Assembly (NCBI GenBank): GCA_030747125.1
Contig: JASLLI010000002.1
Location: forward strand, 1 to 43,577
DNA length: 43,577 nt
From: Fidelibacterota bacterium
GTDB lineage: Bacteria > Fidelibacterota > Marinisomatia > SCGC-AAA003-L08 > D37C17
Direction of reading: 5' to 3'
Positions 19 through 29,601 of the stretch are shown in pieces; position 1 is the first letter of the stretch, and the number at the start of each line of letters is the position of its first letter. The notes under the pieces were generated by a model. That model saw only the letters and a list, made by a program, of their open reading frames with translations, did no database searches and was not told where the DNA came from. The position numbers and the translations under genes are program-made.

Positions 19-915
19 ATGAAACTATCACTCATACCCTTAATTTTCAGTTTCTCCTTATTTAGTCAAACCGTTTCAGACTTTGCCTATACTGGTGCCA
101 GAGCAGGAGCGCTGGCCGGAGCGGCAACTTCTATAAAAGGCAATGAAATGAGTATATATCACAACCCTGCTGCTATTGCCGAAACGGAAGGAAACTTTAT
201 TTCTGCAGGAGGAGGTCATTTATACGGTTTTACCTGGCTGCCTACCTATCAACTATCCCTCCTAATGCAAAATCCATTATTTGGGAAAATCGCAATTGGA
301 ATTCAAAAATTGGAAGCCAAATACAATGGAACTTCCCTCTCAAATGAAACTGCAATTTCTTTGGCATCAGGCATTGACTTACAGCATGACAGGAACTCCC
401 GTTTATCTGTGGGAGGAACAGTGAATTACCTTACATGGGAGTTAGGAAAATCTGCCGGTGTCAGCGGTGACGGTTCTGATGGAATTGATGGAGGAGAATT
501 GCAGGCTGTTTCTTTGGATTTAGGAGCCTTAGCTTCTCTTCGGGGGAAGTACCGCTTTGGTGTTTTTTTAAAAAATGCGAGTAATTCTCAAATTGGGAAA
601 AACTTATCTGCCCATTCACTTCCTCGCAGAATGAACGCAGGTATCAGTTACACACCCATTCCACACCTTACTACAACCATAGTCTCTGAGCAGTTTCTGG
701 GTAGAGATGACCTCCAGATTAAGGGAGGTGTTTCTTACCAATTCAAAAAAGGTATAGAGTTAAATATCGGGGCACAATCCAATCCAAACCGTATAGGTGC
801 AGGGGTTAGCATAGACCAGGAAATGGGGAGACAAACCATTCGAATGATATATGGTCTGCTGAGCCATCCCGTCCTGCCCCTCACCCATCAATATCAGATA
901 GGCATCACCTTTTGA
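19..915 (+). CDS. PorV/PorQ-like outer-membrane beta-barrel protein
   Basis: Predicted 298-residue outer-membrane protein. The first ~17 residues form a signal peptide (Lys at 2, then a Leu/Ile/Phe-rich core ending FSLFSQ). The segment GARAGALAGA (about residues 26-35) followed by HNPAAIAETEG (about 48-58) is the typical N-terminal pattern of PorV/PorQ (FadL-like) proteins of FCB bacteria, which serve as type IX secretion components or shuttles. The rest is alternating hydrophobic/polar strand-like sequence, and the protein ends in Phe, as many barrels do. ATG start with a weak CGGAG 8-12 bases upstream. Its TGA overlaps the TTG start of the next gene, so the two are probably translationally coupled. 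The promoter is probably outside the window. Assignment to the family is fairly secure; the exact role (secretion versus transport) is not. Confidence 0.72.
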   Translation: MKLSLIPLIFSFSLFSQTVSDFAYTGARAGALAGAATSIKGNEMSIYHNPAAIAETEGNFISAGGGHLYGFTWLPTYQLSLLMQNPLFGKIAIGIQKLEAKYNGTSLSNETAISLASGIDLQHDRNSRLSVGGTVNYLTWELGKSAGVSGDGSDGIDGGELQAVSLDLGALASLRGKYRFGVFLKNASNSQIGKNLSAHSLPRRMNAGISYTPIPHLTTTIVSEQFLGRDDLQIKGGVSYQFKKGIELNIGAQSNPNRIGAGVSIDQEMGRQTIRMIYGLLSHPVLPLTHQYQIGITF

Positions 916-3383
916 AGCATTCCATACTACTTGTATTTTTTACTTTAGGATTAGCTTTTAGCGGAAAAATAAATCTGAATACAGCATCTGCTGATGAGTT
1001 GGCTGTTCTGCCTTTATCGGAAACCCAGATTTATTCCTTAATAGACTATCGGGAAAGCCAGGGTTACTTTAACTCTTTATATGAGCTTTCAAAAATATCC
1101 GGGTTTAACACTACTCACATTCATGCTATTCGTAAATCCGTTACGGTAGCACTCCCCTCTCAATCAACCTTTGAAAAGGATATGCAGCGTGCATCCTATA
1201 AACTTGGACAATGGATTTCAAACGAAGGCAGCACAGAAGGGCTGTCTGAAGTCTGGTTAGACAGGTTTTACGAACCGCAAAATGTAAATGAAATGAACTA
1301 TGACGATCTCATGCTGCTGCCAAATTTGAGCCCTGTAGATGTTACGGCGGTGCTCCTGCAAAAGGAACGAGGTTATATTAAAGGGACCTTTGAATTGAAA
1401 AACTCCCCAGGGATCAGTTATTGGGGATATAAAAATTTGGTGGACTTTGTCCGTTTTGAGAATAAACCAGCAGATGAATCTCCCTTTCATATTCGAATAA
1501 ATTCATTGGTGCGTACCATTCCTATCACTTCAAATCCTGATGATGAAGGAACTGTTTCAGCTTTTAAAGACAGCAGCCGGCCTGAGCAGTTTCATAAAGT
1601 CTCATTTACTACGGTGAATAATTTAAAAGGGGGATATTCATATCACAGATATATGGGACAGCCCCGGGATGTTTTTACGGAAAAACTTTTTCTCTCAACA
1701 GAAAAGATACCTTTAGGGAAGGGAATTCGCTTAGACAGAGCTGTACTCGGCAACTTTACCGCCTCTTTTGGGCAGGGTGTCATATTTGAGACTGGAGATG
1801 ACTTCAGCCCTCGCAGAACAGGTTATGGATTCACAAAAAGAGCAACGGGAATTCATGGTGATCTGACCCGCAGCTCACAATATGTGATGCGTGGAGGAGC
1901 CATTCAAATGTCATCCCCCTTTTTTAGGGGTGCAATGTTTCTCTCTCAACATCCCCGGGATGCAGTCATTAATAGTGACTCCAGTTTCACCTCGCTCATT
2001 GTGATGCAGCCACGCCTTCCTTACGGTGCAAATGGAGACAGTTCGAAAATTTTTCACTCTCTTACCGGTTCATTGAATGAGGTAACCTGGGGAGGTAATT
2101 TTCAACTGTCGCCTGTTACCGGTACCCATCTGGGATTTACCTTTTTTGAAGCCCTCTATGACAGGCCACATATTCCCCAGGTGATTAATTCTATAACAGG
2201 TGGCGATGATGACTTTGATGCAGAATTCAGCCCGGATGATTATGATGATTACTCCGGTGATGCCTTTTACCTCACTTACATCACTAACTCTGCAGATGCT
2301 GAAATTGCAGCAATGGATAGTTCCGAAGCGGAATCAGAACTTTGGGAGGAGGCACAATCTTTTTTCAGAGTAAGAGGTTTTGACTTTTCAACGGTTTTGG
2401 GGAATATTGCCATTGCTGGTGAATATGGTGAAATGATGAAAGACGATAATCTGATTGGGTTTGGGAGCAATCCTTCAGCCACGGTGGTAAATGCTTACAC
2501 CCAGTTCCCCAATTTGAATATTCTCCTTCTCTATCGAAATTATGATTTAGCTTACGATAATCCTTACCAGCGTTCTTATTCAAATTATCAGCGCTATAAA
2601 ACCACCATATTTGAAGATTCATATTGGCTGGAGGACCCCATTTTCAGCTATTTATATTCCGGTAACCCCCAACCCCAGGCGGAAGAAGGATTTTTTATTT
2701 CTTCCCGCTACCAGTTTCACCGATCCTTTGTTGGCGTATTAAACTGGGATACCTGGAACCGAAAGGCTGACAATGCTAAATACTTCCGCACTGTTGCCAC
2801 AATAGACTGGAGGCCCGCATTTAACTGCCGGATAAAATTGCGCCAAAAATGGCAGGGAAGGGGAGTATTTGACATTCAGCATCCCAGCCCATTTTATTCA
2901 CGGGAATCCCGCCTGCAGGCTCGGCTACGTATGTCCCGCTATAATCAATTCGAAATTTTATACTCAAAGGGATATACCACATTTTCACCAAGGCCCCGCT
3001 TAACAGACAACGCCCTTGGTGGAGATATGATGGTGGGAGATATAGGCTCTCCCGATGAGACTATGGGTGTCAGCATTACCCATCATGCCGATCACCACTT
3101 TACCATGAAGGGAGGAATTCTCTATATCAAAGGATTCTTGTGGTATTTCGAAGATACAGATTTTCGAGTGTTTAACTCAGATAATGGTGCAGTCCATTCA
3201 TGGGTGTCTGTAGATTTGAAACCTACTCCCCTGCTTCGAGTTATGTTTAAGGTGAGCCATTCATCTGAAGCAACTTCAACACGAGTGGTTGACGGAAAAG
3301 CTCCCGATGGAAGATGGATGTATAATCCCATTGTAACGGGAGAGGAAATGGACTACAGATTACAACTCAGTTATGCCCTTTAA
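912..3383 (+). CDS. Helix-hairpin-helix (ComEA-like) surface protein with large C-terminal barrel-like region
   Basis: 823 residues. After a short signal peptide (about 1-17) comes a ComEA-like helix-hairpin-helix unit (INLNTASADEL near 20-30, with GYFNSLYELSKISG following). A second HhH-like unit lies at about 123-182 (NVNEMNYDDLMLLPNL, then GTFELKNSPGIS). HhH motifs usually bind the DNA backbone. The remaining ~600 residues are rich in aromatic and alternating residues, as in outer-membrane barrels, with an acidic stretch near 430-450 (DDDFDAEFSPDDYDDY). The start is TTG at 912, overlapping the previous TGA by four bases; no upstream ATG fits, and a signal peptide begins right there. The protein overlaps the next gene by 11 bases. 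DNA binding at the surface is an inference; such HhH-barrel proteins are poorly characterised. Confidence 0.7.
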   Translation: MKHSILLVFFTLGLAFSGKINLNTASADELAVLPLSETQIYSLIDYRESQGYFNSLYELSKISGFNTTHIHAIRKSVTVALPSQSTFEKDMQRASYKLGQWISNEGSTEGLSEVWLDRFYEPQNVNEMNYDDLMLLPNLSPVDVTAVLLQKERGYIKGTFELKNSPGISYWGYKNLVDFVRFENKPADESPFHIRINSLVRTIPITSNPDDEGTVSAFKDSSRPEQFHKVSFTTVNNLKGGYSYHRYMGQPRDVFTEKLFLSTEKIPLGKGIRLDRAVLGNFTASFGQGVIFETGDDFSPRRTGYGFTKRATGIHGDLTRSSQYVMRGGAIQMSSPFFRGAMFLSQHPRDAVINSDSSFTSLIVMQPRLPYGANGDSSKIFHSLTGSLNEVTWGGNFQLSPVTGTHLGFTFFEALYDRPHIPQVINSITGGDDDFDAEFSPDDYDDYSGDAFYLTYITNSADAEIAAMDSSEAESELWEEAQSFFRVRGFDFSTVLGNIAIAGEYGEMMKDDNLIGFGSNPSATVVNAYTQFPNLNILLLYRNYDLAYDNPYQRSYSNYQRYKTTIFEDSYWLEDPIFSYLYSGNPQPQAEEGFFISSRYQFHRSFVGVLNWDTWNRKADNAKYFRTVATIDWRPAFNCRIKLRQKWQGRGVFDIQHPSPFYSRESRLQARLRMSRYNQFEILYSKGYTTFSPRPRLTDNALGGDMMVGDIGSPDETMGVSITHHADHHFTMKGGILYIKGFLWYFEDTDFRVFNSDNGAVHSWVSVDLKPTPLLRVMFKVSHSSEATSTRVVDGKAPDGRWMYNPIVTGEEMDYRLQLSYAL

Positions 3384-4749
3384 ATACAAAATGAATAGAA
3401 AATTGTTTACTCAAAAATCAACTCCATACACTAAAACAAACCTTCCTGGAAAATCCTTTTCAACTTTGTTGGTGTTATCATTACTGGTAACCCAATTTCT
3501 CATGGGGCAGTCCCTGTTTAACCGCTTTACCGGTGCTGACCTGTTTAACGGATCAGTTTCCTCCTCTGCTATGGGTGCAACACATCTGCTAAACTCGAAT
3601 GGCAGCTGGCAGAGCAGATACAATCCGGCATCACTAACTAAAGGAGGGGCAGTCATTGATCTGCAGCTATCCAGATTGAATGTATTTGAGCGTCGCAGTA
3701 TGCCGGTGCGTGATAGTTTTGATGAATTCCTCACTCATGCAGATTATGCAGCCAATACCTATAATACAAATTTCATTCATGCAGGAATTACTTATAAGCA
3801 ATTCATCACGGGATTGGGTGATGTTGGAGTTGGTATAAGCCTCTCCCCTCTGTCTCATTTTAATTATGATTATTCTGAAGAAGTGAGAGGGTCTTATCGT
3901 ACTGAAGATGGCGAATATGCAGGGAAAGACCCTGTAGTTGGTTTTCAGAAATTAAATACACAGGGAATGCAGCGGATGGTTTCTTTTGGAGCAGGCTGGC
4001 ATCTGCAAAACCTCTTTCAATTTAACGGAAGTGTTGGTCTTTCCTTTAATCAGGTTTTAGGGTCTGAAATCACAGAAACCGTTCAAGTGGACTCATTATA
4101 TGCAGATGTTATAAATTTATCCACATATCCTGATCTTGTTCAATCTGCTAAAATCCCTTCAGGAAATTTCATAACTGTATCGGCAGAATTCCCCTTACTT
4201 GCCTACATTAAATTAGCTGCAAGCTATGAATCTGCTGTCACTATAAAATCAGACAGTTTCTACTGGGAAAGGGACTCTGCCAATGGATTTTATCAATTTT
4301 GGACAGACAGTAGTACTTATGTCCCTTCCGGGATAAATTTTATTAAGCCTGAAAAATCCACTCTGGGCATTAGTTATACCGGAGGAGAAAATAAAAACAT
4401 TAGCATCCACCTTGAAGCTGATCTCCTCCAGTATGACAAACATCAGGACTTAAGAGATACAAAAAATGTAAAATTTGGGTTTGAGTATTTAACACAGAGA
4501 GGTACCCCGGTTAGGGGAGGACTGGTCTATACAGGAAGCCCACTTCCGGGGATGAATCCTGTCTCAATATTTACCTTCGGTTCAGGTAAAACCATAAATA
4601 ATATCCAGATTGATTTCGGTGGTAATTATGGAATTCAGTCCTATAATCATCCTGATTTATTTCCCGTCTCCGGCGATATCCGGCCTGATTATGACTTGGT
4701 GAGAGAATCACAATTACAACTCCACTTATCTGTACAGTATCTATGGTAA
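3373..4749 (+). CDS. Outer-membrane beta-barrel protein, PorV/FadL-like
   Basis: 458 residues. A long basic N-region precedes a hydrophobic core (STLLVLSLLVTQFLMGQ), consistent with a signal peptide cleaved near residue 46. The following SSAMGATHLL and RYNPASL segments resemble the N-terminus of PorV/PorQ/FadL-type barrels. The body is made of strand-like alternating sequence and the protein ends ...SVQYLW, an aromatic C-terminus typical of outer-membrane barrels. The start at 3373 keeps the overlapping arrangement of this operon; an alternative ATG at 3391 gives a shorter n-region and no overlap. It overlaps the next gene by 7 bases. Probably a partner of the two barrels upstream; the substrate is unknown. 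Confidence 0.62.
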   Translation: MPFKYKMNRKLFTQKSTPYTKTNLPGKSFSTLLVLSLLVTQFLMGQSLFNRFTGADLFNGSVSSSAMGATHLLNSNGSWQSRYNPASLTKGGAVIDLQLSRLNVFERRSMPVRDSFDEFLTHADYAANTYNTNFIHAGITYKQFITGLGDVGVGISLSPLSHFNYDYSEEVRGSYRTEDGEYAGKDPVVGFQKLNTQGMQRMVSFGAGWHLQNLFQFNGSVGLSFNQVLGSEITETVQVDSLYADVINLSTYPDLVQSAKIPSGNFITVSAEFPLLAYIKLAASYESAVTIKSDSFYWERDSANGFYQFWTDSSTYVPSGINFIKPEKSTLGISYTGGENKNISIHLEADLLQYDKHQDLRDTKNVKFGFEYLTQRGTPVRGGLVYTGSPLPGMNPVSIFTFGSGKTINNIQIDFGGNYGIQSYNHPDLFPVSGDIRPDYDLVRESQLQLHLSVQYLW

Positions 4750-6659
4750 AATCCCTTATTTTTTGGGGGTTTCTTGCCTCACATCTCGTTTCTTCAGAGC
4801 CTGTGAGAATAAATCTGGTAACCACTAATGATATTCACGGGGTGTTAGCAAGTCAAACTGCGAATTTTATGAACCCTAATTATCCGCCTACCATTGTAGG
4901 TGCAGCAGCTTTTTCAAAGTATGTGGATGAACTCCGTATTTCTGCCGAACAAAATGGAGAGGGGCTACTCATCTTAGACGGCGGCAATTTTTTCCAGGGG
5001 AATCCTCTGGGTACCGTTGATGGTGGAAGGACAATGATTCAATGGATGAATCGCGTCGGGTATCATGCATTGGTACCCGGCAGCTATGATTTTATTTTAG
5101 GAGCAGAGGTGCTCAATAATGCTGCCTCCACGGCTTCCTTCCCCTTCCTTTTTGCAAACTTAGAATGTCATAACTGTCCTCTCATTCATGAAAATATAAA
5201 GCCTTACTCCATCATGGAAATTTCAGGGATAAACATTGGTATTTTGGGAATTGTAAACTCTCGATTAACTGAACTTGTGCTGGCGGAAAATTTGGAGGGA
5301 ACAACAGCATCACTTGAAGTCCCGGCAGTAAATAGGTGGGTACCCCAAATGAAAAGTGAGGGGGCAGAAGTTATCATTATTCTCAATAGTTCAGGAGTGC
5401 CTTGGGACAGAGAAGAAGAATATGCCACATTTCTGAATAAAGTTAAGGAGGGAGAAATAAATGAGAATCACCCCTTAAATGCACTGGAATTGGGATATTT
5501 TCTGGAGGATGTGGACTTTCTTGTTGCAGGCGGAAATTCGAAGGGGTATCCACTCCCCTGGTATGATCCCCATAGTCATGTTTTTGTCATGCAGGGATAT
5601 GGCGGTGGTACAGAGTTCAGTCATATCCAACTCCTCATTGACAGAGACAGCCATACTTTTAACGGCTATGAAACCGTTGTTGACGGCAGAGCGAGTCAAA
5701 CTTTGCTGGCAGATGACTTTCAGGTAAAAAGGAAGGATGCAGCCTGGATTCAAGAAAAACAGGATATGGCAATGAAACAGTATTATTCGGATGGAATGAA
5801 TCATGCATTGACTTCCTCTCATATTAAAAAATTACACAGGGAAGATTGGAATATCCCCTCAATAAATCAGGAGCATAATCTTGATATTATATCCTGGAAT
5901 GTGGAGTTTTTTCCGCATGCAAATGATTCAACTATTCTTTCCCTGGCAGAAGCCGTACTGGATTTAGATGCAGATATTATTGCCTTCCAGGAAATCCGCA
6001 AAACAGGCTGGTTCAGTAAGCTCATGGCATACTTACCCGAATATGCCTTCGTTGTATCTACCCAGGCATCCTTTATGGATTTGGCTACCATTTATAAAAA
6101 AGATCAATTTGAACTCATCCGTCATATTGAGCCTTTTGCAGACAATGATTATAACTTTGCAGGAAGACCCCCTCTTCAGACAGATATGAGATATTTTTCA
6201 GACGGAATGGAGAGGACCCTAAGAGTGGTAAACCTGCACATGAAATGCTGTGACTCAGGGCTTGAAAGACGCAAAAAGGCTGCCGGAATGCTCCATGAAT
6301 ATTTAAGTGACCGTCATGATGAATTTCCCAATGTAATTGTATTAGGCGATTGGAATGACGATACTAAAGATGCTCCGGGTCAACATTGTTTTGATCCTTT
6401 TTTCAAAGATGAACGCTTTTATTTTACTACCGAGGGAATTGCCTATGACATAAGTCAGGCGACCTATCCTAAAGAGCCTTATGTGAGTTTTTTAGATCAT
6501 ATCATGGTTTCTGAAACATTACTTCCAACCCATTCAGATTATATAGTAAAAACGCTCATTATGGGTAACTACATGGGTGGATATGATATTTATGAAGCCT
6601 ATATATCAGATCATCGCCCCGTGCTTTTATCTTTTCCTCTTCAGGTAGAAATTAGATAA
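4743..6659 (+). CDS. Secreted protein: degenerate 5'-nucleotidase-like domain fused to EEP nuclease/phosphodiesterase domain
   Basis: 638 residues with a signal peptide (about 1-18). Residues ~21-310 follow the layout of 5'-nucleotidase/metallophosphatase domains: TNDIHG (28-33) keeps the first Asp-x-His metal pair. The other signature positions are altered: DGGNFFQG (79-86) where GD is expected, GSYD (113-116) in place of GNHE/D, NSSG (215-218) without its His, and GGNSKG (263-268) in place of GH.H. Residues ~378-635 form an endonuclease/exonuclease/phosphatase domain with its motifs intact: SWNVEFF (384-390), FQEI (415-418), VNLHMK (496-501), GDWND (535-539), LDHI (584-587) and SDHRP (622-626). 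The second domain should therefore be an active metal-dependent phosphodiesterase or nuclease in the periplasm or outside the cell. Last gene of a four-gene overlapping operon. Substrate (DNA, RNA, nucleotide, lipid) cannot be told from sequence. Confidence 0.8.
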   Translation: MVKSLIFWGFLASHLVSSEPVRINLVTTNDIHGVLASQTANFMNPNYPPTIVGAAAFSKYVDELRISAEQNGEGLLILDGGNFFQGNPLGTVDGGRTMIQWMNRVGYHALVPGSYDFILGAEVLNNAASTASFPFLFANLECHNCPLIHENIKPYSIMEISGINIGILGIVNSRLTELVLAENLEGTTASLEVPAVNRWVPQMKSEGAEVIIILNSSGVPWDREEEYATFLNKVKEGEINENHPLNALELGYFLEDVDFLVAGGNSKGYPLPWYDPHSHVFVMQGYGGGTEFSHIQLLIDRDSHTFNGYETVVDGRASQTLLADDFQVKRKDAAWIQEKQDMAMKQYYSDGMNHALTSSHIKKLHREDWNIPSINQEHNLDIISWNVEFFPHANDSTILSLAEAVLDLDADIIAFQEIRKTGWFSKLMAYLPEYAFVVSTQASFMDLATIYKKDQFELIRHIEPFADNDYNFAGRPPLQTDMRYFSDGMERTLRVVNLHMKCCDSGLERRKKAAGMLHEYLSDRHDEFPNVIVLGDWNDDTKDAPGQHCFDPFFKDERFYFTTEGIAYDISQATYPKEPYVSFLDHIMVSETLLPTHSDYIVKTLIMGNYMGGYDIYEAYISDHRPVLLSFPLQVEIR

Positions 6660-6954
6660 TTTCTACTTTTAATGTGTGCCTGAAAATGGCACGAATAGAT
6701 TATTATTGTTTCCTTCGTTTTAGTTTTAACCATCTGGAAGCATGTATTACCTTATCGCTCAACCAACATGGTTAAGATAAATTCTGACAACGAAAGTGTG
6801 AATTGCTCTAAGGGATGAGATAATAAATTTCATTGTTTTTTTCAACTTTTCAAGTAAAATTATGATAATTCGTGATTAATCCCCATTTATCTGTTACATT
6901 AAAATACAGTTTCCGTCACAAAATTGTATATTATACCCCGGTAAATTTGACTAT
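6660..6954 (+). other. Intergenic spacer, AT-rich
   Basis: 295 bases between two genes of the same strand. I find no convincing terminator; the only hairpin is a 5-bp GTGCC/GGCAC stem near 6676-6692. An AT-rich stretch (TATATTATAC, 6927-6936) just upstream of the ATG at 6955 could be a promoter -10 region, but no matching -35 is seen. The downstream gene has no Shine-Dalgarno sequence. Confidence 0.3.
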
Positions 6955-8571
6955 ATGCGCAGAATTGTAACTTATATAATTACCCCATCGCTAATGGGAT
7001 TCTTGCTGATACTTTTACACATCAATTTGGTATCTGCCCAAAGCTGTCCGCCGGAGGATACTCTTGCTGTCACTCCTGCTCAGAACAGTTATAATTTCCC
7101 CTTGGTGAATAACTGGCATGGTGTGGAGATCATGACATGGAACATAAAAGAATTTGCCCGGCACTCTACTACGGTTAATCTTGTAAATGAAATTATTGCA
7201 GATGGTCTCCCTGATGTTATCGCCATCCAGGAAATTGAGGATATGTCTGAGTTTACCCAGCTTTCTTCAAGTCTCCCAGCCTATGAATTTATTCATACCA
7301 ATTATAATAGTACCAATTTAGATTTAGGGTTAGCTGTCAGGAAAGATTGTGCCGAGATTCTATCCAGTCAGACTCTTTTCCCTGGGGATGGCTGGGCATT
7401 TGCCGGCCGTTATCCTTTACAAGCAGAAATTGATTGGCATTGTGGTTCCTCTTATTTGAATTTTGAAATCATAAATGTACATTATAAAGCCTATGATGAA
7501 GGATTTGATCAACGCTATGAAGCTTCTGAAATATTAGAAAATTATATTTCTGATAATCCCAATACCAATATTGTGGTAGCAGGAGATTTTAATGATCATA
7601 TTGATGATCCCCAAAATTTTAATTCTCTTTGGCCATTGGTAAATAGTAGCAATGCCTATTTTGTCACTACCTCCATTGCGGGAAACTCCTATCATAATTC
7701 CTTCCCCTGGGGTTCTTATGCAGGGTTAATAGACCATATACTAATTTCTGCCCCTCTATTTAACGAAAATGAGAATGGCAACACCTATACACTGAGACTA
7801 GATGACTATATGGGGTCCTCTTCCTATCAAAATTATATTTCTGACCACCGCCCTGTAGTATGGGAAATTCCCATAGAAGCTACTGATCTGAATCTGGGGT
7901 TGGTCATCAATGAAATCCATCAAAATCCGGCTGCTGTTTCCGATGCTGACGGCGAATGGGTTGAAATCACAAATACTTCTTCAGAAAATATTAACTTGAA
8001 TGGACTCATTCTCCGAGATAACGGTAATGAAACACATACTATTTCCACCAATGTATGGGTTGCTCCGGATGCCTTTATTATTTTAGGTGCTGAAGGAAAT
8101 ATAGAAGTGAATGGTGGAGTTTCCGTGGACTATGAATACTCAGACTTTAGTCTCTCCAACTTGTGGGATGAAGTTATCATTGAGCATCCCAGCGGAGTAA
8201 TATTGGATGAAGTACATTATGATAATGGTGTTACCTTCCCCGATGAGAGTGGCATTTCCATGATGCTCCTGTCACCCGAAATGGATAACAGTATCGGAGG
8301 AAACTGGATGGCAGCAACAACCCCATTCGGAGCAGGAGATTTAGGAACTCCGGGAGAAGCCAATTTTTCAGATGATGACTGTGAACCTTTGGGAGATATG
8401 AACGATGATGAAGGCTTCAATGTGTTAGATGTAGTCATCTTAGCAAACTGTGTTTTAGAAAATACCTGTGAATCAAATTGTGCCTCGGATATGAACCAGG
8501 ACGGTGTTGCAAATGTGTTGGATATTGTACAATTAGTGAATTGCATTTTGGCTAATTCCTGCGGAAATTAA
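6955..8571 (+). CDS. Secreted EEP-family nuclease with lamin-tail domain and dockerin-like C-terminus
   Basis: 538 residues. A signal peptide ends near SAQ (about residue 29). An endonuclease/exonuclease/phosphatase domain (about 50-305) has all the usual motifs: TWNIKEF, AIQEIED, NVHYKAYDEG, VVAGDFND, IDHILIS and SDHRPV. It is clearly paralogous to the C-terminal domain of the gene at 4743. Next comes a lamin-tail (LTD) domain (about 315-455; VINEIHQNP, GEWVEITNTS, LILRD). The last ~70 residues hold two Asp/Asn calcium-loop repeats (GDMNDDEGFNVLDVV, SDMNQDGVANVLDIV) with paired Cys, like dockerin type I repeats. EEP plus LTD is the architecture of known extracellular nucleases such as Shewanella ExeM, so an extracellular DNase is the best guess. 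The C-terminal module may anchor or sort the protein. Confidence 0.8.
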   Translation: MRRIVTYIITPSLMGFLLILLHINLVSAQSCPPEDTLAVTPAQNSYNFPLVNNWHGVEIMTWNIKEFARHSTTVNLVNEIIADGLPDVIAIQEIEDMSEFTQLSSSLPAYEFIHTNYNSTNLDLGLAVRKDCAEILSSQTLFPGDGWAFAGRYPLQAEIDWHCGSSYLNFEIINVHYKAYDEGFDQRYEASEILENYISDNPNTNIVVAGDFNDHIDDPQNFNSLWPLVNSSNAYFVTTSIAGNSYHNSFPWGSYAGLIDHILISAPLFNENENGNTYTLRLDDYMGSSSYQNYISDHRPVVWEIPIEATDLNLGLVINEIHQNPAAVSDADGEWVEITNTSSENINLNGLILRDNGNETHTISTNVWVAPDAFIILGAEGNIEVNGGVSVDYEYSDFSLSNLWDEVIIEHPSGVILDEVHYDNGVTFPDESGISMMLLSPEMDNSIGGNWMAATTPFGAGDLGTPGEANFSDDDCEPLGDMNDDEGFNVLDVVILANCVLENTCESNCASDMNQDGVANVLDIVQLVNCILANSCGN

Positions 8572-9131
8572 CCTTAGTTGATAGTTAATTTTGTCATTGG
8601 TCATTTGTCATTAGGCGTTCGTCATTTGGCATTAGTCAATCGGATATAGAGGATCGGGGAATCTGTAAAATTATTACATAGGTAACATATTGATCCTAAT
8701 CCTTAGTTCTTAAATCATCCTAAATCGTTCTAATTCTTCTTTCTTCAATTTAATATCTTTACAATTCATCCTTGATTCCAAACTTTCCTAGTTGTGGTAA
8801 TTTTCCATAACTACTACATATTGTAGTCTCTGCCGTACCATTCTAAATTAAAAAATTAAAAAACCAATTTTACCACAAAATTCGATTGTGATTACTTTCT
8901 ATACCCCATACAACATATAGGGGGCATAGGTTTAATAATCATTAGTATAATTAAAATAATTTTGCCTATATATTACTATATAACAGGTATTTATAAATTT
9001 TTTTACTTATATTACTTAAAGTAATACATTAAATGCTTGCATCTCATTTTTGAATACTGTTAATATTGAAAAGCAAGAAAAAATCCCCATGGGGGTTGGC
9101 TTGAAAAACTGAACTAAAAATGAGGTGTAAC
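8572..9131 (+). other. Long AT-rich intergenic region with degenerate simple repeats
   Basis: About 560 bases with no plausible gene. Positions 8593-8640 carry a degenerate GTCATT-type tandem repeat, annotated separately. A stretch around 8690-8760 has loosely repeated ATCCTAA/AATC words. The rest is very AT-rich. A palindrome CCCCATGGGG lies at 9085-9094, shortly before the next gene. GAGGTG at 9122-9127 is a likely ribosome-binding site for the ATG at 9132. Confidence 0.45.
8593..8640. repeat. Degenerate GTCATT(N) tandem repeat
   Basis: About six imperfect copies of a 7-8 base unit (GTCATTG, GTCATTT, GTCATTA, GCGTTC, GTCATTTG, GCATTA) follow one another. The same family recurs at 11311-11351. 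It has no coding potential in this position and looks like a simple-repeat family confined to spacers. Confidence 0.7.
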
Positions 9132-10259
9132 ATGAAAAAGATAATTCGCATAACAGGCATGTTTTTAAGTATCGTAAAACTTTCAACAGCTGCGATACCT
9201 GCTGAAACAGACCCTTACCTTTCAGATAATATCCTTGCTTCTGTTCAGGATATATCCATCAGCAAATTATTAGATTTCAAGAAAATTGCGGCAGCAATAG
9301 ATGACGGATTTGATATGGCTCGCTTTCATTATATTATAGCCTATGAAATTGATCAACGACTTCAGACTTTAGATCAGAAATTTGACGGTCATGAAGAAAA
9401 ATTTCTTAAAACTATCAGACGTTACGAGGATGAACTGGATATTACCCCATATAAGTATAGTAATGATCGGCCTCAATTTGACTATCACTATCAACCTGCT
9501 GAAATTTCTGATGAAACCATTGATGCAGACATCCACCGTATTCAGGCCGAACTGGCCCGAACCCAGTTTATTCAGGTATATAAATATTATCGCAAACGCC
9601 TGGATAATTATAAAAGCTATCTTGTAACTCTAAGAGATCTATATAAATGCAAAGTTATTGAAAATAAAGATAACCAAGTAGAATACTATACCAATTTTAG
9701 AGAGATGTATCAGGGTATCCGCCTTTTCCATGATGCTATGGATGATGCAGGTAAAATGCATGTAAAAAGGGATGTTTTAGGGAAAGTTCAATATATTGAC
9801 TGGAGTATTGAAAATGAACCCGATAACTACCGTCGCAGAGAATTCGAGTATGAAACCGACGGACTCCTTTCACGGCTGACAGATACCATCAATGAAGAAG
9901 TGGTATTTGAAACCTTGTTTGGCGAAAATAACACAGCTGAAGATTTTATAAATTATTTATTTTCTCCGGGATTCATTCCACGAGACTACAGTTATTTTAC
10001 CGAAATTTACTATTCTGATAACCTCCCCTCTGCTTTAAAATTCACTACCATGAGTGGTCATGTAATCGGTACAATCTATAAGGAATATGACGAAAAAGAT
10101 CATCTCATCAAAGAAGCCTGGTGTAAAGGAGAAACCAGTAAAATTCTACGGGAATTTACCAGTATATTTGACCCGGCGACTGGCGGTTATAAACTCATAG
10201 AAAGAGACCGTAATGGCAAAATTGTTCATCAGGAAGTCGTGTTAAGTAGTAACGATTAA
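9132..10259 (+). CDS. Secreted protein of unknown function
   Basis: 375 residues; not recognised. The first ~22 residues (MKKIIRITGMFL...) look like a signal peptide. I chose the ATG at 9132, which has GAGGTG four bases upstream, rather than the in-frame ATG at 9120, which would overlap that site. The N-terminal half is helical and rich in Tyr, Asp and Glu (about 80-200). The C-terminal half has short strand-turn repeats: DVLGKVQYIDW, RREFEYETDGLLSRLTD, IGTIYKEYDEKDHLIKEAW, ERDRNGKIVHQEV. These resemble YD/RHS- or MORN-like repeats, but the match is loose. It is probably co-transcribed with the barrel gene 17 bases downstream. Confidence 0.55.
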   Translation: MKKIIRITGMFLSIVKLSTAAIPAETDPYLSDNILASVQDISISKLLDFKKIAAAIDDGFDMARFHYIIAYEIDQRLQTLDQKFDGHEEKFLKTIRRYEDELDITPYKYSNDRPQFDYHYQPAEISDETIDADIHRIQAELARTQFIQVYKYYRKRLDNYKSYLVTLRDLYKCKVIENKDNQVEYYTNFREMYQGIRLFHDAMDDAGKMHVKRDVLGKVQYIDWSIENEPDNYRRREFEYETDGLLSRLTDTINEEVVFETLFGENNTAEDFINYLFSPGFIPRDYSYFTEIYYSDNLPSALKFTTMSGHVIGTIYKEYDEKDHLIKEAWCKGETSKILREFTSIFDPATGGYKLIERDRNGKIVHQEVVLSSND

Positions 10260-10276
10260 TTTAAATAAATACGGGA

Positions 10277-11095
10277 ATGATTCGGCAAACTCTTGAGAGA
10301 TTTTTAATCCTCTTTATCTGTATTATAAATTTTGTCCCTGCACAGGTTGAGCAACCATATCCCCCTTTAAGTTTAGTCAGCATTCCAACAGCCGGCACAT
10401 TACCCAGGGGGTCATTTACTCTGGAATCTCTGTTGACAAAAAGTGGAGGTGTAACTCCCCGCTTGTCTGTGGGATTTACAGATAATTTTTCCTTCGGTGT
10501 TTCTTTTGGTATGCAGAATCTTATTGGCGATAATAAGCCTGCTGTAAACAAAACCACTCCCGAGGTTCAAATTAAATATCGTGTCTTTGATGAATCTCAG
10601 ACTATGCCTGCATTGGTCTATGGATTGGATACTCAGGGTAGGGGGATTTACCACGAAACAGATTCCATTTTATTATCCGGAGAATTTGACAGTCTGAGAA
10701 CTATAAACCGATATGATCAGAAAGCTTGGGGAATGTACATGGTCATGAGCAAAAACTGGAATCTTTTTGGCAATCTGGGACTTCATTTAGGTTTTAATAA
10801 ATCCCTTTCTGAAAACGATGATGGAGACAATGACTTAAATGTATTTTTCGGCATTGATAAAGAACTGAACCGAACTTTTTCCCTCCTTGTTGAATATGAC
10901 AGCGCATTAAATGATAATGACTATGATCTGGATGAAATCACTTTTGGCCGTGGTAAAGGCTATTTAAACGCAGGACTCCGGTGGGCATTTAATGCGAACC
11001 TCATGGTGGAAATCAATTTTAATGATATCAATCAGAATACCAGCGCTAAATACACCAACCGTGAAATTAAGGTGATGTTCTCCGAATCCTTTTAG
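10277..11095 (+). CDS. Predicted small outer-membrane beta-barrel protein
   Basis: 272 residues with a signal peptide (about 1-23, ending VPAQ). The mature N-terminus reads SIPTAGTLPRGSF, a pattern seen in small barrels that begin with a proline/glycine turn before the first strand. The remainder is alternating strand-like sequence with Asp/Asn-rich turns (SENDDGDNDLN, DNDYDLDEI), and it ends ...FSESF with a C-terminal Phe. It lies 17 bases after the unknown secreted protein and is probably co-transcribed with it. Specific function unknown. Confidence 0.55.
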   Translation: MIRQTLERFLILFICIINFVPAQVEQPYPPLSLVSIPTAGTLPRGSFTLESLLTKSGGVTPRLSVGFTDNFSFGVSFGMQNLIGDNKPAVNKTTPEVQIKYRVFDESQTMPALVYGLDTQGRGIYHETDSILLSGEFDSLRTINRYDQKAWGMYMVMSKNWNLFGNLGLHLGFNKSLSENDDGDNDLNVFFGIDKELNRTFSLLVEYDSALNDNDYDLDEITFGRGKGYLNAGLRWAFNANLMVEINFNDINQNTSAKYTNREIKVMFSESF

Positions 11096-11480: not shown

Positions 11481-12245
11481 ATGAAAATACTACTATTACC
11501 AATCCTGTTTTTTGCCGCTTCATTATTATCGGGAGCATCAGATTTTGAAAAAGGAGCTGCCTATTACAAAAACAGACATGAAGGGGCACAAGGAATAAAA
11601 GCATCAACTGAAAATATTGATAAGGCAATCCATCATTTTCAAAAAGCAATAAAAGAACCTGCTTTTGAACTGGAGTCAGCCGTGTATTTATTACAATGCT
11701 ACTATTATAAGGCGGAGTTTGCCATACAGGATATTGCAGAAAAAAAACGCATATTTAATGATGGTAAGGCTTTAGGCTCACAGTATATAGAACTCTACCC
11801 CGAAAATGTAAAATTCCGCTATTGGTATTTGGTAAACCTGGGCAGCTGGGCACAGGTGTATGGTATTCTCACCGCTGCCAGAGAAGGTGTAGCAGATCAG
11901 ATGAAAACCCACTCAGAAAAAATTATAGAACTGGATGCAGCCTATCAGGATGGAGGCGGTTATTTCATGCTGGGAGCAGTTCACTATAAATCACCATATA
12001 TCCCTTTCATTTTATCCTGGCCTGATAATGATGATGCCATAAAATATTTACAAAAGGCACATGATACAGGCACGGCAACTCTGAATCAGAAAAATTATTT
12101 AGCACAGGCATTATATAAAGATGGTGAAAAAGACAAAGCGAAGCAGCTCCTTAATGAAGTTATCGGCTCGGATCCTCTTCCTGAAAATTTAGTGGAAGAA
12201 TTAGATGATATCCGTGAAGCCAAAGAAATTCTTGCCGGTTATTGA
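11481..12245 (+). CDS. Secreted TPR-type protein, possibly TatT-like
   Basis: 254 residues with a signal peptide (about 1-19, ending LLSGA). The body is built of TPR-like helical pairs: DKAIHHFQKAI near 48-58, AVYLLQCYYYKAEFA near 70, and DDAIKYLQKAHDTG plus LAQALYKDGEKDKAKQLL near the C-terminus (about 182-225). The order of helices, and the YWYLVNLGSWAQVYGI segment near 115-130, recall the periplasmic TRAP-associated TatT family, but no TRAP transporter gene is near, so this is tentative. ATG start with AAGGA six bases upstream. The gene ends 8 bases before queG and may be co-transcribed with it. Confidence 0.6.
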   Translation: MKILLLPILFFAASLLSGASDFEKGAAYYKNRHEGAQGIKASTENIDKAIHHFQKAIKEPAFELESAVYLLQCYYYKAEFAIQDIAEKKRIFNDGKALGSQYIELYPENVKFRYWYLVNLGSWAQVYGILTAAREGVADQMKTHSEKIIELDAAYQDGGGYFMLGAVHYKSPYIPFILSWPDNDDAIKYLQKAHDTGTATLNQKNYLAQALYKDGEKDKAKQLLNEVIGSDPLPENLVEELDDIREAKEILAGY

Positions 12246-27161: not shown

Positions 27162-28187
27162 TTGGCTTCCATATCCCAAATTGCAGAAACTATTGGGGGT
27201 GAGATTATTGGAAATCCCCAATTAGAAATTCAGGGAGTTTGTGATGTAAAATCAGGGAAAGCCCGGCATATCACCTTTATTGGTTCCCGGGAATATGAAC
27301 AATATTTTGATAGTTGCAATGCTGATGCCTTTGTGGTAAATCTTAAATTTTCCTTAGAAAACAGAAATAAAACCCTGATAAAGGTTGATGACCCCACCTA
27401 TCATTTTGTTAAAGTTGTGGATATGTTTTATCCTGCCCCTGTGTTTAAAAGCGGGGTCCATGAAACAGCAATCATTGATGACTCTGTAACTCTTGGTGAG
27501 AATGTCTCCCTAGGTCCCTATGTGGTGATTGAAGGTGGGAGCACTTTGGGAAACAATGTAGTGATCGGTGCAGGGACATTTATTGGTGCAAATGTGACCA
27601 TTGGAGAGGGAACAATTATTAGACCTAATGTATCTGTGTACCATGACAGTGTAATCGGAAAACACTGCATCATTGATTCTGGCACCTCTATTGGTGCTGA
27701 TGGTTTCGGCTTGCTCACCCATAAAGGAATCCGCCATAAAATGCCCCATGTAGGCAGAGCCATTTTAGAAGATAATGTACTCATTGGGGCAAACTGTTGT
27801 GTTGACAGAGGAACGTTGAACGATACAGTTGTAGGCGAAGGTTCAAAATTTGATAATTTCATACAGGTGGCACACAATGTTCAAATTGGAAAAAACTGCG
27901 TCATCTCAGGGCAGACAGCAATAGGAGGTAGCACAGTATTGGGTGACAATATCACCATTGCCGGTCAGGTGGGCATTATTGATCACCTCACCATAGGTTC
28001 AGGCTCTGTTATTGCTGGAAAATCAGGGGTTTTTCAGTCCATTGAAGAAAACTCATTTGTATCGGGGACTCCTGCAAGACCCCACAAGGAAAGACTGCGC
28101 CAGGATGCAGCAACCAATAAACTCCCCGACCTGCTGAAAAAAGTACGGAAACTTGAACAGGAAGCCCTCCAACCGGAAAACCGATAA
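27162..28187 (+). CDS. lpxD: UDP-3-O-acylglucosamine N-acyltransferase LpxD
   Basis: 341 residues. LpxD adds the second acyl chain to the lipid A precursor using acyl-ACP. The N-terminal uridine-binding domain (about 1-98) contains the GVCDVKSGKARHITFI region. From about 100 on there are left-handed beta-helix hexapeptide repeats (AIIDDSVTLGENVSLGPYVV...). The catalytic His is in FIQVAHNVQIG. A C-terminal helix ends the protein. The start is TTG, one base after the skp stop; no ATG fits the conserved N-terminus. It is followed after one base by the LpxC-FabZ gene. Confidence 0.96.
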   Translation: MASISQIAETIGGEIIGNPQLEIQGVCDVKSGKARHITFIGSREYEQYFDSCNADAFVVNLKFSLENRNKTLIKVDDPTYHFVKVVDMFYPAPVFKSGVHETAIIDDSVTLGENVSLGPYVVIEGGSTLGNNVVIGAGTFIGANVTIGEGTIIRPNVSVYHDSVIGKHCIIDSGTSIGADGFGLLTHKGIRHKMPHVGRAILEDNVLIGANCCVDRGTLNDTVVGEGSKFDNFIQVAHNVQIGKNCVISGQTAIGGSTVLGDNITIAGQVGIIDHLTIGSGSVIAGKSGVFQSIEENSFVSGTPARPHKERLRQDAATNKLPDLLKKVRKLEQEALQPENR

Positions 28188-28188
28188 C

Positions 28189-29601
28189 ATGGCAGTAAAC
28201 CATAATCCACGCTATCAGAGAACTATTAAAGAGGAAGTATCCATCAAGGGAATTGGCCTCCATACAGGGGTTGAAACTACTGCCATATTTAAACCAGCTC
28301 CTGAAAATTTTGGCATCCGTTTCAAACGCCTTGATCTTAAAGACTGCCCAGAAATTATTGCGGATATTGATCATGTAATTGATATTTCCCGGGGAACCAC
28401 AATCGGGCAGAATGATTTCCGTATTCATACCGTTGAACATATTCTGGCTGCAGTGGTTGGGCTTCATATTGATAATATTCACATTGAGTTGACAGAAAAA
28501 GAACCACCTGTAATGGATGGATCTGCGCAGCCCTTTGTAGATATTTTATTACAGGCAGGAATTGAAAAGCAAAAAGCTCCAAAACATGAATTAATCATTG
28601 ACAAAACCATCACCTATTCTGAGCCTGAACGGGGTGTGGATATTCATGTGCTTCCTTCGGACTGTTTCAGAATCACTTTCATGACGGATTACCAACAGCC
28701 TTCCCTGGGGACTCAATATACTGCCATGTATTCTCTGGATGAAGATTTTGTGGAAGAATTCGCTCCCTCCCGTACATTCTGCTTTTTCTCAGAAATCATG
28801 GCATTGAAAGAGCAGGGACTTATCAAAGGTGGAAACCTAGATAACGCCGTAGTATTTATGGATCGGGATGTAAATGAAGGTGAAATTGAACATCTTCAAG
28901 ATATGTTTGGAATAGATTCAAAAATACTTCCCGGGAAAAACGGAACCCTGAATGGTACCAGTCTGCGCTTTCAAAATGAGCCTGTACGCCACAAGGTATT
29001 GGATTTAATTGGTGATGTTGCCCTTCTGGGAATGCCCATTCGCGGCCACATCATCGCCGCCCGAAGTGGTCATGCAGCCAATGTGGAATTGGTGAAAAAA
29101 ATCAAACAAACTTATTCAAAAAAACTTGCTATTAAAAAACCAGAACAGGAACATGATCAAGTGAAATTTAATATCCAGGAAATTCTGCAGATACTCCCCC
29201 ACCGCTACCCCTTCCTTCTCATAGACCGCATTATCAGTCTTGAACCTGGTAAGGTAGTGAATGCCATAAAAAATGTATCCATGAACGAACCATTTTTCCA
29301 AGGGCATTTCCCCGGACAGCCGGTAATGCCGGGAGTACTCATTCTTGAAGCCATGGCTCAGGCAGGGGGCTTTCTCGTTCTCCATTCCATTGATAACCCT
29401 GAAACCAAACTCATGTATTTTACAGGTATCAATAAGAGCCGCTTTAAACGCATCGTCACTCCGGGAGATCAGGTACATTTTGAGGTGACATTGGAAAAAT
29501 TCAGAATGGGCACCTGTAAAATACATGGCAGGGCAAAAGTCAATGATGAGTTTGTTGCGGAAGCAGAAATGCTTGCATCAGTGGTTGACAGGGAGAATTG
29601 A
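28189..29601 (+). CDS. lpxC: Bifunctional LpxC deacetylase / FabZ dehydratase fusion
   Basis: 470 residues. The N-terminal LpxC (about 1-310) is the zinc UDP-3-O-acyl-GlcNAc deacetylase that commits the cell to lipid A synthesis. Zinc ligands are in TVEHILAA (His84) and HKVLDLIGD; a catalytic His is in GHIIAARSGHAAN. The C-terminal FabZ (about 325-468) is the 3-hydroxyacyl-ACP dehydratase, with LPHRYPFLLIDRI and the active-site GHFPGQPVMPGVLILEAMAQ. This fusion is known from Bacteroidetes and relatives and supports the FCB assignment. I chose ATG 28189, one base after the lpxD stop; a longer frame from 28153 overlaps lpxD and adds a poor N-terminus. Confidence 0.96.
   Translation: MAVNHNPRYQRTIKEEVSIKGIGLHTGVETTAIFKPAPENFGIRFKRLDLKDCPEIIADIDHVIDISRGTTIGQNDFRIHTVEHILAAVVGLHIDNIHIELTEKEPPVMDGSAQPFVDILLQAGIEKQKAPKHELIIDKTITYSEPERGVDIHVLPSDCFRITFMTDYQQPSLGTQYTAMYSLDEDFVEEFAPSRTFCFFSEIMALKEQGLIKGGNLDNAVVFMDRDVNEGEIEHLQDMFGIDSKILPGKNGTLNGTSLRFQNEPVRHKVLDLIGDVALLGMPIRGHIIAARSGHAANVELVKKIKQTYSKKLAIKKPEQEHDQVKFNIQEILQILPHRYPFLLIDRIISLEPGKVVNAIKNVSMNEPFFQGHFPGQPVMPGVLILEAMAQAGGFLVLHSIDNPETKLMYFTGINKSRFKRIVTPGDQVHFEVTLEKFRMGTCKIHGRAKVNDEFVAEAEMLASVVDREN

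Follow-up and report, generated by a model that had tools for sequence, protein, structure and literature searches.

What is encoded by a tightly packed set of genes for outer-membrane barrels, an HhH protein and secreted EEP enzymes, which lies at the very beginning of a 43,577-nucleotide stretch of DNA from a Fidelibacterota (Marinimicrobia) bacterium? This whole stretch (the window) forms the start of contig C30 in a 1.7 Mb genome. The first-pass annotation, made from the sequence alone, had read the set as a system for acquiring extracellular nucleic acid. Marinimicrobia are widespread uncultured ocean bacteria, and little is known about how they exploit extracellular DNA and dissolved organic phosphorus. 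The features considered here are the following:

19..915, + strand: PorV/PorQ-type outer-membrane barrel, operon gene 3 (NF033709 below cut-off; position in 66/69 loci)
912..3383, + strand: HhH protein on a large beta-barrel (HHH_3; profile matches; AF2 model)
969..1151, + strand: HhH unit 1, non-canonical hairpin (LP-LS, not PGhG)
1272..1457, + strand: HhH unit 2, non-canonical (PNLSPVD; D143 at the ComEA K164 position)
3373..4749, + strand: FadL-like outer-membrane barrel (family profile; position in 64/69 loci)
4743..6659, + strand: secreted fusion of a degenerate 5'-nucleotidase domain and an EEP hydrolase
4803..5777, + strand: pseudo-5'-nucleotidase domain, aa ~21-345 (PDB profile match, motif comparison)
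5877..6638, + strand: EEP domain, aa ~379-632 (Exo_endo_phos 7e-9; intact motifs)
6955..8571, + strand: another secreted EEP protein, which has an LTD and ends in a dockerin (domain search; EEP neighbour in many relatives)
9120..10259, + strand: family F8, conserved 3' neighbour, operon membership uncertain
10277..11095, + strand: outer-membrane barrel (OMP_b-brl, weak), conserved 3' neighbour, operon membership uncertain
11481..12245, + strand: TPR protein, conserved 3' neighbour, operon membership uncertain

As had been described, the + strand genes at 19-915, 912-3383, 3373-4749 and 4743-6659 each run into the next, with overlaps of 4, 11 and 7 bases; the second of them starts with TTG. Because the window begins at a contig end, the operon is truncated on its 5' side, and two further genes, found directly before PorV in relatives, are off-contig here. 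The domain content given in the first-pass annotation was borne out by profile searches: two PorV/FadL-like barrels, HhH units on a barrel-like body (HHH_3 3.4e-10, ~24 predicted strands), a secreted EEP protein at 4743-6659 (Exo_endo_phos 7e-9) and a second one with an LTD at 6955-8571 (Exo_endo_phos 1e-9, LTD 3e-12). Two domains were missing from that annotation, a dockerin type I domain at the C-terminus of 6955-8571 (8.5e-6, above cut-off) and a 5'-nucleotidase-like domain making up approximately the N-terminal half of 4743-6659.

The PorV assignment came from NF033709 (PorV_fam), which matched 19-915 with 28.9 bits (E=8e-7) and did not reach its cut-off of 90 bits. The protein is related to PorV/PorQ, but is not a certified member of the family. 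For 3373-4749 a single-sequence Pfam search gave no FadL-family match; the family profile searched against the PDB found FadL/TodX/TbuX at 1.5e-9, which places the protein in the FadL family. Channels of this family are known for hydrophobic substrates.

Conservation of the gene order was determined in 80 loci, from Fidelibacterota/Marinimicrobia, Calditrichota and other groups, that a scan of GTDB genomes had yielded. PorV was located immediately 5' of the HhH barrel gene in 66 of 69 usable loci and FadL immediately 3' of it in 64 of 69; an LTD-family gene was found upstream in 53/54 loci and a nucleotidase-type gene downstream in 54/60. The gene overlaps were often identical among related loci. 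The recurrence of the order in 64-66 of 69 related loci shows that the grouping is not due to chance, and the conserved linkage on which the first-pass annotation had staked its reading proved very strong. The order LTD-LTD-PorV-HhH barrel-FadL-nucleotidase/EEP is kept in Fidelibacterota and Calditrichota and partly in KSB1 and Zixibacteria records; most exceptions came from KSB1-like or Calditrichota records (L152, L155, L158, L160, L163). The operon therefore spans several FCB-group phyla, mostly marine Marinimicrobia, and as a fixed arrangement over several phyla it is a concrete, testable candidate. In the window's phylum 66 of 175 genomes (counted by eye) had a long HhH-barrel match with E below 1e-30, the remaining matches being mostly short and of the ComEA type. 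The second EEP protein (6955-8571 type) was often, not always, conserved beside the operon. Two records titled Flavobacteriales (L090, L097) carry an operon like that of the Marinimicrobia records and are probably mislabelled MAGs.

The 912-3383 protein consists of a signal peptide, HhH units at aa ~20-80 and ~121-182, and ~24 strands at aa 192-822. HHH_3 scored above its cut-off, and the family profile searched against the PDB matched EEPD1 (1e-11, the top match) and ComEA (4e-7), indicating a ComEA-type HhH fold. The AF2 prediction had a pLDDT of 73 and a pTM of 0.71; Foldseek with the barrel returned generic TonB receptors and ushers as best matches (TM ~0.3), which gave no functional clue.

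According to the first-pass annotation the HhH units bind DNA. The residues on which this would depend are mostly missing: the GhG motif was present at hairpins 1-4 in 0/72, 2/75, 0/75 and 0/75 homologs, respectively. In B. subtilis ComEA lysine K164 is required for DNA binding (PMC9747964). The corresponding residue is Q39 in unit 1 (Q in 40/75 homologs, K in 14/75) and D143 in unit 2, where all 75 of 75 homologs have Asp. With GhG almost absent and the ComEA lysine replaced by an invariant Asp, the claim is unsupported; since EEPD1 itself has hairpins in which the second glycine is missing, we regard DNA binding by these units, judged from their residues, as doubtful and no worse than that. 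Net charge was tried as a further indicator and dropped: the HhH region had a median of -10, and the control, B. subtilis ComEA, was also negative (-2). A ComEA-type HhH unit fused to EEP has a precedent in a Thioalkalivibrio DNase (PMC4777378). The window proteins share ComEA-type HhH units with ComEA, EEPD1 and this DNase, the latter two having EEP as well, but differ in that the HhH units are carried on a barrel, EEP is on a separate protein and the hairpins lack GhG.

The first half of the 4743-6659 protein matched PRK09420 (9e-17) and, as family profile, PDB entry 3ivd (4e-34); the predicted model (pLDDT 90) had 5'-nucleotidases as best Foldseek matches. The last slot of the operon is nearly always occupied by a protein of 5'-nucleotidase type, either PF00149 plus PF02872 or an EEP fusion. 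In the window fusion the metal-site motifs read GGN, GSYDF, NSSG and GGNSKG instead of GD, GNHD/E, H and GHxH, and of the metal-ligand motifs DxH alone is kept. The protein is thus no active UshA-type 5'-nucleotidase, the ligands being gone and PF02872 replaced by EEP, although it shares the fold of UshA/CD73 in its N-terminal domain and intact relatives hold the same operon slot. The EEP motifs WN, QE, H, GDxND, DH and SDH are intact in 4743-6659, kept in the aligned fusions and backed by invariant alignment columns, which together with the Exo_endo_phos match assigns the domain to the EEP hydrolase superfamily. Among its best PDB relatives were 4c1r, a mannosyl-6-phosphatase, and EEP proteins that are uncharacterised; nucleases were matched only weakly.

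All four scored metal-site motifs were present in 0 of 39 EEP-fused copies and in 15 of 23 copies scored as unfused (Fisher p=5e-9, a value calculated from related rows, which are not a count of independent events). The 23 include three fusions interrupted by a contig end or a split frame (L099, L105, L106) and one copy cut by a contig end (L151). The tree first gave four changes of the EEP label, involving among others these three rows without EEP; when they were left out of the count (the tree was computed with them), the no-EEP rows formed one clade with 99/95 support. Reading the three as truncations is our own interpretation. The pattern would fit a single fusion followed by decay of the old active site. 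The direction of the swap, from nucleotidase to fusion, is suggested by the intact PF00149+PF02872 form being the usual 5'-nucleotidase. In four Calditrichota copies (L148, L154, L156, L159) the nucleotidase is not fused and still partly degenerate, which shows that it also decayed without fusion. Such a swap would be a clean case of a pseudoenzyme retained as scaffold after a new domain had taken over catalysis. Elsewhere in the same genome there are another nucleotidase-like protein with the degenerate motif SPGSKDF (L170, G000:C33) and a third EEP protein with a lipoprotein-like start (L171, G000:C14), whose KCCGDG motif is common to the stand-alone EEP enzyme of L119.

The two genes preceding PorV in relatives code for proteins with LTD, PKD, DUF5689 or OB modules, many of them ending in Por_Secre_tail, the sorting tail of type IX secretion (T9SS), or in dockerin. 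One of these upstream homologues matched the ExeM/NucH DNase family NF033681 at 2.7e-5 with 23 bits (cut-off 300 bits); in the window the profile gave 17 bits for 4743 and nothing for 6955, so that neither can be assigned to ExeM/NucH. In ExeM, nuclease activity depends on the region that bears putative OB folds (PMC6085458). The likeness to ExeM/NucH (Xds) lies in secreted LTD, OB-fold and EEP modules, EEP and LTD in 6955-8571 and LTD/OB in the upstream proteins. Here, however, the modules are spread over several proteins, EEP sits on a dead 5'-nucleotidase, and there are T9SS tails and dedicated barrels. An e(P4)-type acid phosphatase (PF03767) was found inside the operon in several relatives, a separate EEP enzyme in or beside it in relatives, and a PNP_UDP_1 protein in or beside it in a single one (L114). 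In a Marinimicrobia record Endonuclease I (PF04231, 2e-40; L135:12490-15134) is encoded immediately 3' of the operon. No nucleoside transporter was regularly linked among the relatives' loci; an SSF symporter occurred in two of them. In DNA degraders from marine sediment, genes for LTD proteins, nucleases and nucleotidases lie near one another (PMC8289736). These Ca. Izemoplasmatales loci resemble ours in clustering genes for extracellular nucleases, nucleotide processing and LTD/nucleic-acid-binding proteins; they differ by lacking an outer membrane, barrels and the HhH barrel, and by having other transporters.

A connection to type IX secretion, missed by the first-pass annotation because of the contig edge, was seen in relatives. 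In G015, G017, G019, G021 and G023 the genes for SprA, an M28 peptidase, PrmA, a further protein, a propeller with a PorZ-like tail, a PorV/PorQ-like protein and a second barrel are followed by LTD-family, LTD-family, PorV and HhH barrel, all on one strand. This M28 peptidase, encoded next to sprA, may correspond to the glutaminyl cyclase that T9SS-bearing species are known to have. In G026 three extra genes are interposed, and in G057 sprA lies ~5 kb from the operon's other end. T9SS-type genes including sprA are upstream on the same strand in loci L172 and L174-L178 (G017, G026, G021, G019, G023 and G015, respectively). SprA was present in the window's genome and in 59 of 60 relatives, and the HhH barrel gene in about 23 of 60. 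Co-occurrence with T9SS was uninformative as a test of linkage, SprA being near-universal. The same counts show that the HhH barrel is not a core T9SS part, which would be present wherever T9SS is. The operon shares with type IX secretion (PorV/PorQ) a PorV-like barrel, T9SS-tailed neighbours and, in relatives, an adjacent sprA; it differs in that the window protein stays under the PorV_fam cut-off and the operon is missing from many T9SS-bearing relatives.

The explanation that we favour, and to which we give about an even chance, is that the window holds the 3' portion of a conserved operon for surface nutrition, which codes for a T9SS-linked surface phosphoester system, with nucleic acids as the probable substrate. 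The upstream T9SS-type exported LTD/PKD/OB proteins would probably hold a polymer at the surface. Phosphodiesters outside the cell, most likely those of DNA or RNA, would be cleaved to small products by secreted phosphoesterases; in the window these are the EEP domain on its dead 5'-nucleotidase scaffold and the second EEP-LTD-dockerin enzyme. A role in delivering or holding secreted proteins is probable for the PorV-like protein, and the products would probably cross the outer membrane through the HhH-headed and FadL-like barrels. Substrate, surface location and passage through the barrels are what we infer from the gene content. Our preference for nucleic acid rests on the 5'-nucleotidase found in the slot, the ExeM-type LTD/OB modules, Endonuclease I, PNP_UDP_1 and the e(P4)-type phosphatase; these lend the nucleic-acid system of the first-pass annotation indirect backing as regards substrate, while its DNA-binding HhH units found no support. 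Against nucleic acid speak the mixed PDB neighbours of EEP, the hydrophobic substrates of FadL channels, the non-canonical HhH hairpins and the lack of a regular nucleoside transporter. More tentatively, we consider it possible that an outer-membrane machine coupled to T9SS, composed of the HhH-headed ~24-strand channel, the PorV/FadL barrels and surface hydrolases, processes and imports an extracellular polymer, and that in Marinimicrobia its hydrolase was rebuilt from a working 5'-nucleotidase into a dead scaffold plus EEP. The operon ties together T9SS, surface phosphoesterases and large HhH barrels with no close solved barrel relative; no published description of the combination was found in the open-access literature searched.

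Three other readings were weighed. The PorV paralogue, the HhH barrel and the FadL-like protein might make up a complex that serves as an alternative means of exporting or attaching LTD surface proteins, the phosphoesterases being cargo or processing the surface anchor. Such a T9SS accessory module would account for the sprA, PorV/PorQ-like, PorZ-like and M28 genes directly upstream in five genomes and nearby in G026, for sprA beyond the other end in G057 and for the Por_Secre_tail of the LTD proteins; HhH units as protein binders also have a precedent (PMC2601033). We regard it as rather unlikely: T9SS is found in 59/60 relatives but the HhH barrel in about 23/60, and the module would not explain why a secreted hydrolase is conserved at the end of the operon. 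The substrate could also be phospholipids, phosphosugars or other non-nucleic phosphoesters, cleaved by a sphingomyelinase- or sugar-phosphatase-like EEP whose hydrophobic product is imported by FadL. The FadL-like channel, the mannosyl-6-phosphatase match and the inclusion of sphingomyelinases in the EEP superfamily are all consistent with this; we judge it unlikely in view of the 5'-nucleotidase-family enzyme otherwise occupying the slot, the OB modules and ExeM similarity upstream, and the Endonuclease I gene adjoining the operon in L135.

An apparatus for natural transformation, taking up DNA for recombination, is very improbable. It would draw on the ComEA-type HhH units and on the genome's having ComEC and a separate ComEA. 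But this ComEA is canonical, with GVG and GIG hairpins, many relatives have ComEA-type matches but no operon, the operon's own HhH hairpins are non-canonical, and conserved secreted nucleotidase/EEP enzymes would be needless for such a function.

Apart from the operon, the window contains at 28153-29601, inside a BamA-OmpH-LpxD cluster, a single ORF in which LpxC and FabA/Z-like domains are fused.
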